64,000 bases of DNA from Thermoplasma acidophilum DSM 1728 (GTDB lineage Archaea > Thermoplasmatota > Thermoplasmata > Thermoplasmatales > Thermoplasmataceae), in assembly GCF_000195915.1 (NCBI RefSeq), contig NC_002578.1:248001-312000 (forward strand), in the 5' to 3' direction. Shown here piece by piece: positions 42,965 to 61,763 of this stretch. The translations under genes and the position numbers were made by a program. The notes beneath the pieces were generated by a model. The model was not told where the DNA came from and made no database searches. It worked only from the letters and a program-made list of their open reading frames with translations. Position 1 is the first letter of the stretch; every line of letters begins with the position of its first letter.

Positions 42965-43906
42965 TCAGGAAGGAACCTGTTTGGGTCTTTTGGTCTCAAT
43001 GTACTTTATGTCCCTCCTCTTTACATGATTGAACCACCATATCTTTCCGATTAGCGAAGCCGCTTCAAAAGTATGATCTATGGATGGTTCAAGGAAGCAT
43101 TCGGTGAAGCACTTGTGACACTTATTATCATATATATCCCATGTCGGCTTCTTATTCAGAACGACTTCTACATGCTCAAAGCATGGATGAACCTTGCCGC
43201 GGTAATCAGTATAGAAGATCTCCTGTCCGGCCTTACAGGCCCTTGATCCCTTCCCATCTATGAAATCAACCGCCTCCTTGTAGTAGCTCCTCATGTTTCC
43301 GAATACGTGCTTATGATAATTCTCGTAAGCATAACTGAATGCCTGCCTTATCATATCGTTTGTAACCTGGAAGTCCTGGAAGTAGTAAGCGTCCTGTTCT
43401 GGGAAGCACATAGATAGAGGAACTCCCAGTTCATTATTGGCGAAGTCGGCGATCTCTCCAACCTTGAAATAATTGAAATTCGTCACAAGCATGTTTGCTG
43501 TGACGATCTTGACCTTACTCTTCGCTTCCTTTATATTTGAAACTACCGTATCGAATATCTTCAATCCACGGTAAGCATTGTGTTCTTCGGGTATATTGCT
43601 GTCCAGTGATATCGTAACAGCATCAAGATATGGATAAAGCTTTCTGAGCACATAGGGATTTGTACCATTTGTAGCTATATGCGTGAAGAAATGATTCTCC
43701 TTCAACTTTCTTATTATATCCACAACGTTCTTGTTTAAAGTCGGCTCTCCGCCTGTGACAGACACTATTTTTATACCGTTATTCTTCATCTCCTGAAGGT
43801 GCTTGTCTATCTGATCCTCCGGAAAGAATATCTTCCCCTGCCATGCATTGCAGCTCTTGCATCTAAGGTTGCAAAAGTAATCAATATTCCATATCATTGT
43901 TTTCAT
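42965..43906 (-). CDS. Radical SAM protein, MoaA/HpnH-like
   Basis: A 313-residue radical SAM enzyme with the cluster motif CNLRCKSC at residues 12-19, directly at the N-terminus. TGGEPTLNK follows (the SAM-binding GGEP motif), then THIATNGTN and AVTISLDS in the usual order. The C-terminal part has further cysteines (RACKAGQE, HPCFEH, CHKCFTEC) that could bind an auxiliary iron-sulfur cluster, as in SPASM-type enzymes. The substrate is unknown. It lies 60 bp after a GNAT gene on the same strand and may share its transcript. Confidence 0.85.
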   Translation of the reverse strand: MKTMIWNIDYFCNLRCKSCNAWQGKIFFPEDQIDKHLQEMKNNGIKIVSVTGGEPTLNKNVVDIIRKLKENHFFTHIATNGTNPYVLRKLYPYLDAVTISLDSNIPEEHNAYRGLKIFDTVVSNIKEAKSKVKIVTANMLVTNFNYFKVGEIADFANNELGVPLSMCFPEQDAYYFQDFQVTNDMIRQAFSYAYENYHKHVFGNMRSYYKEAVDFIDGKGSRACKAGQEIFYTDYRGKVHPCFEHVEVVLNKKPTWDIYDNKCHKCFTECFLEPSIDHTFEAASLIGKIWWFNHVKRRDIKYIETKRPKQVPS

Positions 43907-58915: not shown

Positions 58916-60592
58916 TCATGCTCTGGCAAATTGAGCCAGCGAAGTTATCTCGTCTGTGCTCTCTATTCCATACCTCTTAACCTTATCTATGTCTACGCCG
59001 GCCTTCTGTGCTTTCTTCTCGATGAAATCCATCATAAGCCTTCCACCAAATGATATCAGGCCACCCGTTGCGAGTTTCAGGAAGGCGTTTCCGTGAGCAT
59101 CCCTGAAGCCATCCCTCGCAGCCATCTTCGCCAAATGCCTGTATGAAGCATAGTATACAGCCAGGCCGTTGACATCAAGCATGCTGGTGTTGAGCTTCTT
59201 GGATTTTATTCTGCCAAGCGGTACGTTCACAAGCGGAGTTACCGTGAATTCGAATGGGCGGCCATCTACATAGGAATTGCTCAGTTTGTTTATCAGCGCT
59301 ATCGTCTCCCAGAGATCCTCCGGAGTCTCACCCTCCTGGCCAACCTGTATTGTGAAAGCTGATCTCCAGTAGTTCCTGGTTTCAACAAACACTCCCTGCC
59401 ATACGATGTCCTGCCATGATCCATCGACGCCTATCCTGAGCGGCAGAGTCTTGTTCGGCATATGCTTCTTCGCCAGCTCTTCGCTTCCCGTCTCAAGACC
59501 GGTCTGTATCCCGATCCAGTTTCTCGGGCCGGCCTTCAGAATCTTAGACAGCTTCTCCATCATCTCCGGGTATCCAGCAGGTATGGATATTCTGCCGTGC
59601 GTCGGGTTTGAGGTCTTCACTCCGGGAACGCTCATGACTGTAGAGAATAATTCGCTTAGAGCTTCCTCATTTGGCTCGAAGAAATGGCCGTGCTTGTAGC
59701 CGAATATCTCATCTGAATGCAACCACGCGTTGTCAACACCGCCAGCTACGTTTATCTTTATCTCGTCAACGATCATGTTCAGTGGCATGTATCTGAGCGG
59801 TCTTAACGTCACTTCACAGAAATCGCAGCCAACGCCGCAGCCACGCATAACCTCCACCATGCCCTTCATCGATGGATTTATGATCTCAGGGATATCCTCA
59901 AGCCGCGGATATGCTGACTGCGTTATGCCTCTCGCAAGGAATTTTTCATCCTTCTTAAGGACTTTGTGGAAGTTTTCGTCATAGCTCATGTATCCATTGA
60001 AAAACATCTGCTTGTCTATGTTGTCCTCTGCAACCTGCCTGAAAAGTTCAGCGACGACATCGTCCGTTTCGCCCTGTACATAGTAATCAACTTTGTATTT
60101 GTCAATTTCGTCTCTCAGTATTGTGAATTCCCACACTCCAGGGCCGCCAACTATCAGCTTCGCCTTCTTGCCCTCCCTGGCCTTGTTGACCTTTTCCATC
60201 AGGCTGTCCCATTCCCGTCTGACCCAGGCGTCGAGGTCTCCACCAAACAATGCATAATAGGACATAGTTGTTGGGCCCAGGCCTAAGGGATCCATTGTGG
60301 AAACACCTATGACCTCGGTCTTATCATCAACATACTGGCCCAAATAATCCTCGTCAACGACAACCACGCTGTCTCTGCCAAAAGCTCTGACGAGAGACGC
60401 CTCTATCTTTCTTATTGCATATGGAGCGTATTTGACGATTCCGTTGACATTGGGAGGTTCTGGGCCCTTGAGAAAACGATATATTGGGCCAGGAATGGCC
60501 TTCCCTGGAGCACACGGAAGAAAGTCCAGCAATGGGAAATGTCTATATTCATAACTGAGAGTTGTGTCGGATACGAGCACGAATCTGGTCAT
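58916..60592 (-). CDS. B12-binding-type radical SAM enzyme, possible tetraether-lipid modifying enzyme
   Basis: A 558-residue protein with an N-terminal cobalamin-binding-like region (VIGVSTMDPLGLGPTTMSYY, then LIVGGPGVWEF). The radical SAM core carries GCGVGCDFC (Cys252, 256, 259) and then TGLETGSEEL. Few other cysteines occur, so no auxiliary cluster is evident. Archaeal enzymes of this build include the GDGT ring synthases (Grs) and related lipid-modifying enzymes, and Thermoplasma makes cyclopentane-bearing tetraether lipids. The opening LVSDTTLSYEYRHFPLLDFL is distinctive. The lipid role is inference; another radical SAM methyltransferase-like function is possible. Confidence 0.78.
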   Translation of the reverse strand: MTRFVLVSDTTLSYEYRHFPLLDFLPCAPGKAIPGPIYRFLKGPEPPNVNGIVKYAPYAIRKIEASLVRAFGRDSVVVVDEDYLGQYVDDKTEVIGVSTMDPLGLGPTTMSYYALFGGDLDAWVRREWDSLMEKVNKAREGKKAKLIVGGPGVWEFTILRDEIDKYKVDYYVQGETDDVVAELFRQVAEDNIDKQMFFNGYMSYDENFHKVLKKDEKFLARGITQSAYPRLEDIPEIINPSMKGMVEVMRGCGVGCDFCEVTLRPLRYMPLNMIVDEIKINVAGGVDNAWLHSDEIFGYKHGHFFEPNEEALSELFSTVMSVPGVKTSNPTHGRISIPAGYPEMMEKLSKILKAGPRNWIGIQTGLETGSEELAKKHMPNKTLPLRIGVDGSWQDIVWQGVFVETRNYWRSAFTIQVGQEGETPEDLWETIALINKLSNSYVDGRPFEFTVTPLVNVPLGRIKSKKLNTSMLDVNGLAVYYASYRHLAKMAARDGFRDAHGNAFLKLATGGLISFGGRLMMDFIEKKAQKAGVDIDKVKRYGIESTDEITSLAQFARA

Positions 60593-61280: not shown

Positions 61281-61436
61281 ATAATTTTTTATTCAGGTGC
61301 TCTGAATTCAGCCGTTTCGGAATATTTTCCATTTTTTCAATCATCATCGATGGCCTGTCCATTTGTGATATTCGTTTTGGACACCAACAATATTTAAAAG
61401 TAAAAAATTATATTGGCTAAAGGTCTATACATAAAT

Positions 61437-61763
61437 ATGAGTTCAAAGGATCTTATAAAGCAGATAATAGAAAAGATACCTGAAAAGGATATGGCCGATC
61501 TGGCCAAATCCAGCAAGACTGTTAACATAGAGCTTACGGATTCGGATCCGTTCCGGATAGCAATCGGCGAGGGAAAGATCAGCATCGCAGATGGAAAGGC
61601 TGAAAAGGCTGATGCGACAGTAAAATGCTCGGATCAAGTTCTTGGCGATATCATTACGGGTAAACTCAACGCGTTTTCTGCCTTCATGAGTGGCAAGGTT
61701 ACGGTTTCAGGCGATCTTTTCTTTGTTCAGAAGATGATAACTGTTCTCGGAAAGGGGAAATGA
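61437..61763 (+). CDS. SCP2 sterol-carrier-like domain protein
   Basis: A 108-residue single-domain protein of the SCP2 family. LIKQIIEKIPEKDMADLAKS precedes a strand-rich core with ATVKCSDQVLGDIITGKLNA, then FMSGKVTVSGDLFFVQKMI, the conserved end of the fold. Such domains bind fatty acyl chains or other lipids in a hydrophobic tunnel. It lies 4 bp before the acyl-CoA dehydrogenase/hydratase gene, so it may deliver acyl-CoA or isoprenoid-CoA substrates to it. ATG 61437 is chosen (the frame opens with TTG 61413); a TATA-like tract at about 61402-61414 lies about 27 bp upstream. Confidence 0.85.
   Translation: MSSKDLIKQIIEKIPEKDMADLAKSSKTVNIELTDSDPFRIAIGEGKISIADGKAEKADATVKCSDQVLGDIITGKLNAFSAFMSGKVTVSGDLFFVQKMITVLGKGK

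Follow-up and report, generated by a model that had tools for sequence, protein, structure and literature searches.

The number of rings in GDGT lipids is tied to the adaptation of membranes to acid and heat, and it is the basis of lipid palaeothermometers. The locus studied here raises the question of whether a Thermoplasma acidophilum gene that annotation leaves without a name encodes an enzyme that makes such rings. The gene, whose locus tag we take to be Ta0288 and whose product we call P0001, lies in a window of 64,000 nucleotides, the whole stretch of DNA that we analysed (bases 248001-312000 of the genome, a single contig of 1,564,906 bases). A literature search under this tag found no paper. 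The reading frame did not arise by chance, because all 27 other genomes of the same family (Thermoplasmataceae) in our phylum sample contain an orthologue, 65-98% identical to it. The gene and its parts, in window coordinates, are as follows:

58916..60592, minus strand: P0001 open reading frame, 558 amino acids, ATG start, no internal stop; a GrsA/GrsB-family radical SAM protein and putative GDGT ring synthase
60023..60592, minus strand: codons 1-190, predicted N-terminal Rossmann domain of the cobalamin-binding type (fold match to MgmA, 9ccb; Pfam trace with E 0.12)
59918..59998, minus strand: codons ~199-225, interdomain insert found in the P0001 clade (seen in two alignments; modelled as short strands)
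59213..59872, minus strand: codons 241-460, radical SAM core (Pfam PF04055)
59816..59839, minus strand: codons 252-259, CX3CX2C ligands of the [4Fe-4S] cluster, the three cysteines being kept in 69/69 Grs-family tree rows
59003..59173, minus strand: codons 474-530, two C-terminal helices, a possible membrane-contact element (AlphaFold2 model)

The Pfam Radical_SAM family (PF04055) matched residues 246-433 with 36.1 bits against a gathering score of 29.5, and the B12-binding family left only a trace (12.7 against 32.1 bits, E 0.12). Among solved structures, the AlphaFold2 model (mean pLDDT 85.7, pTM 0.87) was closest to MgmA (9ccb; Z 21.4, rmsd 4.0 Å, 369 aligned residues), a match that runs over residues 3-530; RimO, MiaB, AprD4, OxsB, TsrM, CysS, and TokK matched at lower Z. 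The two-domain layout of cobalamin-type radical SAM enzymes, which an earlier note on this DNA had proposed, stands in this predicted fold. The “few extra cysteines” that the same note remarked on come down to a single one: of the four cysteines (C27, C252, C256, and C259), the last three form CX3CX2C, and C27 is not conserved. The cysteines of auxiliary [4Fe-4S] clusters are absent, and P0001 would have too few for the usual kind of auxiliary cluster. C27 was also discarded as a catalytic or cluster ligand: its position holds Thr in all nine GrsA-clade rows of our tree and Ser in five of the 14 P0001-clade rows, and it is dispensable for the proven enzyme GrsA, since GrsA has Thr there. In the model, the insert forms strands 200-204, 210-214, and 218-220, and the C-terminal helices span residues 474-494 and 503-530, joined by a linker that is in part of low pLDDT. 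The second helix looks amphipathic (mean hydropathy 0.29, hydrophobic moment 1.16) and, by analogy with the GrsA model in passages of PMC11186832, membrane contact through these helices is possible.

The S. acidocaldarius genome (G388) was found to encode two full-length relatives of P0001. One precedes pyrE by twelve open reading frames, a number that includes a frame truncated at the locus boundary, and the identities of pyrE and pyrF nearby are in line with Pfam; pyrE is presumably Saci_1597, which would make this relative Saci_1585, that is, GrsA. The other, at ~200 kb, we take to be Saci_0240, or GrsB, from its position and because that genome yielded no further full-length member of the family. 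The two are 29.0% identical in our alignment, near the 31% that a passage of PMC8473941 gives for GrsA and GrsB. Among the 20 radical-SAM matches of the T. acidophilum genome are the tetraether synthase Tes, encoded by a separate gene (L002, 690 bits to NF045702), and a paralogue of P0001, L011, which is 30% identical to it. At 54.5% identity to S. acidocaldarius GrsB, L011 is, on its sequence, the GrsB orthologue of T. acidophilum.

Another T. acidophilum protein, L008 (529 aa), was rejected as a Grs protein, as the S. acidocaldarius gene before pyrE is related to P0001 and L011 instead. L008 had one match in each Sulfolobales-type genome searched (E <=1e-20), and its S. acidocaldarius orthologue, at 1.551 Mb, is probably Saci_1785, the outgroup of earlier Grs trees. 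Both proteins are, like P0001, cobalamin-type radical SAM proteins of similar size, but they fall outside the Grs family, with 19.6-19.8% identity and at most 36.3 bits to the GrsA and GrsB profiles described below. S. acidocaldarius also encodes a 399-aa Grs-like protein lacking CX3CX2C (L219, 8319-9518, minus strand), perhaps a partner subunit; three more of the genomes searched, G374, G382, and G389, gave partial matches within reading frames of 378-393 aa.

Profile searches placed P0001 in the same family as both proven enzymes. We built a GrsA profile from 14 GrsA-clade sequences and a GrsB profile from five GrsB-clade sequences, all from the class of genome G292 and none from Thermoplasmata, so circularity was avoided. 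The GrsA-only profile scored P0001 at 228 bits, GrsB at 265, and L011 at 274, and the GrsB-only profile scored P0001 at 199, GrsA at 234, and L011 at 813; the other T. acidophilum radical-SAM proteins tested reached at most 29.9 bits with either. In the reverse direction, a profile of 14 P0001-clade sequences, searched against the reading frames of 18 S. acidocaldarius radical-SAM loci, scored GrsA at 260 and GrsB at 214 bits, the next best being 20.4. A family profile that includes P0001 matched 287 reading frames, with the largest gap in score between 354.5 and 129.1 bits. P0001 is 28.3% identical to GrsA over 487 columns and 26.3% identical to GrsB over 506, levels close to the 29.0% between GrsA and GrsB themselves. 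Its membership in the Grs family is therefore well supported, and we regard it as close to settled. What the earlier note had argued from architecture, a radical SAM enzyme acting on lipids, is now backed by full-length sequence homology to GrsA and GrsB.

This homology also bears on whether P0001 could be a cobalamin-dependent methyltransferase, or a different radical SAM enzyme with a non-lipid role, alike in fold only. Its closest solved structure, MgmA, is a glutamine C-methyltransferase acting on MCR, and its best NCBIfam model, TIGR04013, is one of unassigned function. However, MgmA is only 20% identical to P0001 in the structural alignment, and P0001 scores far under the family cut-offs (27.2 against 360 bits for the MgmA family, TIGR04014, and 40.9 against 251 for TIGR04013). 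TIGR04013, itself below cut-off, is likewise the best model for GrsA and GrsB, and none of the three proteins reaches any NCBIfam cut-off. With full-length homology pointing to GrsA and GrsB, we consider a methyltransferase or other non-lipid function quite improbable.

Three further lipid enzymes share the superfamily and the pathway with Grs proteins, namely tetraether synthase, calditol synthase (Cds), and GMGT synthase, and any of them would be a very far-fetched identity for P0001. Tes is encoded by L002, which gave no meaningful BLAST alignment with P0001, and the Tes model (NF045702, cut-off 450 bits) was not one of the 13 families reported at E <=1 for P0001. GMGT synthase, according to a section of PMC11186832, has a SPASM domain and two auxiliary clusters, whereas only a single cysteine of P0001 lies outside CX3CX2C. 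Among the 18 S. acidocaldarius loci, whichever of them may be Cds, the P0001-clade profile gave no score above 21 bits beyond GrsA and GrsB, and even at E <=10 it matched only these two and one further locus (L310).

We next consider where P0001 falls within the Grs family. Our careful tree comprised 71 rows and 515 columns, its root being set by two highly divergent outgroup rows. One group (support 94/90) united GrsA and its outer relatives, and the GrsB clade (98/95) contained L011 and not P0001. P0001 fell into a third branch (38 rows, support 100/100), separate from the GrsA and GrsB clades and grouping with the GrsA side (95/88). Within this branch, the P0001 clade (14 rows, 100/100) has as its sister a Nitrososphaeria clade of ~575-aa proteins (98/92), and the two are joined at 100/99 by a “short” clade that includes Aciduliprofundum (87/96); a further clade consists of ~525-aa Nitrososphaeria genes, with a group of tandem paralogues nested among them. 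Approximately unbiased (AU) tests rejected the P0001 clade and the nine GrsA rows as one group (p 1.8e-58), and also the third branch with GrsB (p 0.009); these p values are optimistic, because a first FastTree had been inspected before the tested groups were defined. P0001 was thus rejected as an orthologue of either GrsA or GrsB, and no Thermoplasmataceae sequence put in our trees fell into the GrsA clade. The earlier note's expectation of a place among the lipid-enzyme clades is supported: P0001 belongs to the same family, if not to the GrsA or GrsB clade proper. According to passages of PMC8473941, a few Thermoplasmatales sequences belong in or close to the GrsA and GrsB clades of the Zeng et al. 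study, and thaumarchaeal homologues make up a separate group; a passage of PMC11868695 notes homologues of GrsA in scaffolds from Thermoplasmata and in some bacteria.

Conserved positions reflect both kinship and divergence. R61, W154, H332, K381, P384, and T414 are identical in 64/64 rows, a count that leaves out five rows labelled “oth”, and in each case one or both of the outgroup rows lack the residue; they are candidates for handling the substrate or SAM. At some other positions, nearly invariant in both the GrsA and the GrsB clade, the P0001 clade differs: I/T is replaced by Q at 416 and F/V by N at 456, and, together with the short clade, W/F by P at 330 and mostly V/F by T at 452. As residues 330, 416, 452, and 456 differ from both proven clades, regiochemistry may differ too. 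Compared with GrsA (Saci_1585), the C-7 ring synthase, P0001 is a full-length homologue with the same domains and the same CX3CX2C, and both are expected to act after Tes; P0001 is set apart by its separate clade, the insert at ~199-225, C27 in place of Thr, and these four positions. GrsB (Saci_0240), the C-3 ring synthase, is a full-length homologue as well, but its true T. acidophilum orthologue is L011, and it is patchy in Thermoplasmataceae, where P0001 is near-universal.

This near-universal presence emerged from a search of 77 genomes across the family, which found Grs-family genes in 73, and in 34 of the 35 of good quality. By our own count, a P0001-type gene occurs in 28 of the 29 Thermoplasmataceae genomes that are at least 95% complete (27 of them from the phylum sample, plus G437 with an orthologue at 74.6% identity); the remaining one, G400, gave no family match. 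In 12 of these 29 (G219, G125, G093, G236, G101, G180, G131, G204, G140, G242, G168, and G148), the P0001 orthologue is the sole family match at E <=1e-20. At the same threshold T. acidophilum has P0001 and L011 only, and the second family gene is GrsB-type in 11 further genomes whose copy was retrieved and of another clade in G227. One orthologue (L048, G177:C2:111880-113646) contains some 31 additional in-frame codons around the equivalent of residue 310, which split its match into two pieces.

Beyond the family, 120 of 292 Thermoplasmatota genomes matched P0001 at E <=1e-10, some of these matches being GrsA-, GrsB- or other-branch relatives. A contig scan, of which we took the best 80 of 189 stretches (78 loci), added Micrarchaeota, Marsarchaeota, Nitrososphaeria, and others, with taxa read from MAG titles, so that mis-binned contigs may be included. 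Tes accompanied the family in 113 of the 120 positive genomes and occurred in 71 of the 172 negative ones (raw counts that ignore kinship and mix P0001-type genes with other family members); seven genomes thus have the family without Tes, 71 Tes only, and 101 neither. Among 17 further genomes with a P0001-type or short-type gene, Tes was detected in 15, in 14 of them above cut-off. By our own sorting, these comprise 13/13 with a P0001-type gene, one by a partial match under cut-off, and 2/4 with a short-type gene. Six Micrarchaeota (G296, G297, G598, G599, G600, and G601; loci L133, L119, L117, L144, L102, and L103) have Grs-family genes in small genomes, P0001-type in four and short-type in two, together with Tes in all six (partial and under cut-off in G296).

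What, then, does P0001 make? Passages of PMC10465181 and PMC9385802 describe GrsA as introducing the C-7 rings that yield GDGT-1 to -4, and GrsB as then adding the C-3 rings of GDGT-5 to -8. The sequences show an intact reading frame, the predicted fold, full-length homology to GrsA and GrsB, a separate branch, near-universal presence in Thermoplasmataceae, often as sole family member found, and co-occurrence with Tes. On this footing, P0001 is probably an enzyme that closes cyclopentane rings in GDGTs and that stands for a third branch among the GrsA/GrsB proteins. Its most likely role in Thermoplasmatales, by analogy, is that of GrsA in Sulfolobus, the formation of the first rings at C-7, though we are less sure of the position than of ring synthesis itself. 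The lipids of cultivated relatives bear on both points. A genome that we take to be Cuniculiplasma divulgatum S5 (G093) has, of the Grs family, the P0001 gene only. As a passage of PMC11349054 reports, C. divulgatum shares with Oxyplasma and T. acidophilum a similar GDGT distribution of 0-4 rings; making these rings with the P0001 gene alone would, by elimination, mark P0001 as the C-7-type enzyme.

Several observations count against a ring synthase, including the mere 28% identity to GrsA, the clade-specific residues, and the lack of a recurrent lipid-gene neighbour described below. A genome that we take to be ‘Ca. Scheffleriplasma hospitalis’ (G125) also has the P0001 orthologue only. At 22 °C, according to a passage of PMC8975820, ringless GDGT-0 accounts for up to 97% of this organism's polar lipids. 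Low temperature may or may not be the reason; cold lowers cyclisation in Sulfolobales, as noted in part of PMC10465181. P0001 might instead modify tetraethers in another way, placing a ring elsewhere or of another size, or forming a crosslink, with a different enzyme making the rings of species that have P0001 only. The almost ringless S. hospitalis would fit such an activity, as would the position of the third branch apart from GrsA and GrsB, the clade-specific residues where both proven clades are near-fixed, and the sister clade in AmoA-bearing Nitrososphaeria, whose crenarchaeol contains a cyclohexane ring of origin unexplained in the relevant passage of PMC9385802. However, C. divulgatum is reported to make ordinary GDGTs with 0-4 rings, and no other family gene was found in it. 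We therefore hold an altered tetraether modification to be unlikely, if less so than the other alternatives, and favour the ring synthase.

As a ring synthase, P0001 would act once Tes has closed the tetraether, touching the membrane peripherally, by analogy with GrsA, through its C-terminal helices. A 5'-deoxyadenosyl radical derived from SAM would abstract hydrogen from an unactivated biphytanyl carbon, again by analogy with GrsA, and a cyclopentane would presumably be closed at C-7 positions up to four times, giving GDGT-1 to GDGT-4. L011, the GrsB orthologue, would add C-3 rings afterwards where present; any role of cobalamin in P0001 is likewise conjectural.

The gene neighbourhood gave no function, as no lipid gene was among the recurrent neighbours. 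We compared neighbourhoods at 99 loci, with the target gene present in 98 (all but L132) and some genomes included twice (for example L069/L078 and L066/L079), so that the loci are not all independent, labelling genes by eye. The recurrent neighbours were DNA-polymerase-like (16 loci), Cdc6-like (15 loci), and PhoU-like and phosphate-transporter-like genes (8 loci each), and short-clade genes had HTH regulators on their upstream side (16 and 6 loci); across the 98 loci, no lipid gene recurred. In T. acidophilum, the two adjacent genes encode an aldo/keto reductase and a CBS-domain protein, in agreement with the earlier note's remark that no lipid genes are adjacent. Two genes away on the opposite strand (window 61413-61763, plus strand) is a protein of the SCP-2 sterol-transfer family (69 bits), a lipid-binding fold; its gene adjoins a 3-hydroxyacyl-CoA dehydrogenase-like gene, and nothing was seen to connect it with P0001. 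The window also encodes, at 42965-43906 on the minus strand, a 313-aa radical SAM protein resembling PTO1314/HpnH (L007, 73 bits against a cut-off of 306).

P0001 itself joins an already known enzyme family; of more general interest are the third branch and the relatives it has in Nitrososphaeria. If P0001 is the ring enzyme of Thermoplasmatales, ring-making without GrsA and GrsB would be explained, the presence or absence of GrsA would be weakened as a proxy for ring-making, and there would be a way to ask which Nitrososphaeria paralogue makes the cyclohexane ring of crenarchaeol. In our own count of Nitrososphaeria, the class of G293, 118 of the 150 sampled genomes have exactly two family matches, and 142 have at least one, matches of any clade being included. 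Among typed genomes, G471 and G489 carry one gene each of the 575-aa and 525-aa types, and G531 has both plus another. Archaeal AmoA was present in 6/6 tested genomes supplying 575-aa or 525-aa type genes and was not detected in the two tested genomes with P0001-type genes (G293 and G591). A passage of PMC9385802 describes the enzyme for the crenarchaeol cyclohexane ring as unidentified. A tentative joint reading, which we find possible but rather doubtful, is that P0001 represents a third ring-synthase class, ‘GrsC’. This would be the only class that many Thermoplasmatales need, and one common to Micrarchaeota, Marsarchaeota, and some AmoA-less Nitrososphaeria; if the work is split, the ~575-aa sister would make the four C-7 rings of crenarchaeol and the ~525-aa type its C-11 cyclohexane.

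Several loci place third-branch genes beside other radical SAM genes. In L137 (6387-9677; Thaumarchaeota MAG UBA164), a P0001 orthologue lies directly 3' of an orthologue of L008 and the S. acidocaldarius 1.551-Mb protein, on the same strand and with a 6-base gap. In L139 (5022-9665; MAG FK_Sedi_A_Bin.149), the same two orthologues lie near each other on one strand, with a short reading frame and a 342-aa radical SAM gene between them. These gene pairs are possibly a cluster of lipid-modifying radical SAM enzymes. Tandem Grs-family genes, with a P0001-type or short-type gene beside other members, occur at L123, L128, L129, L098, and G438:C146. Finally, at L066 (5885-10741, minus strand; G023), a short-clade Grs gene stands in a same-strand run with genes that we labelled by eye as a SPASM-like radical SAM protein, a second cobalamin-type radical SAM protein, and an HTH regulator.
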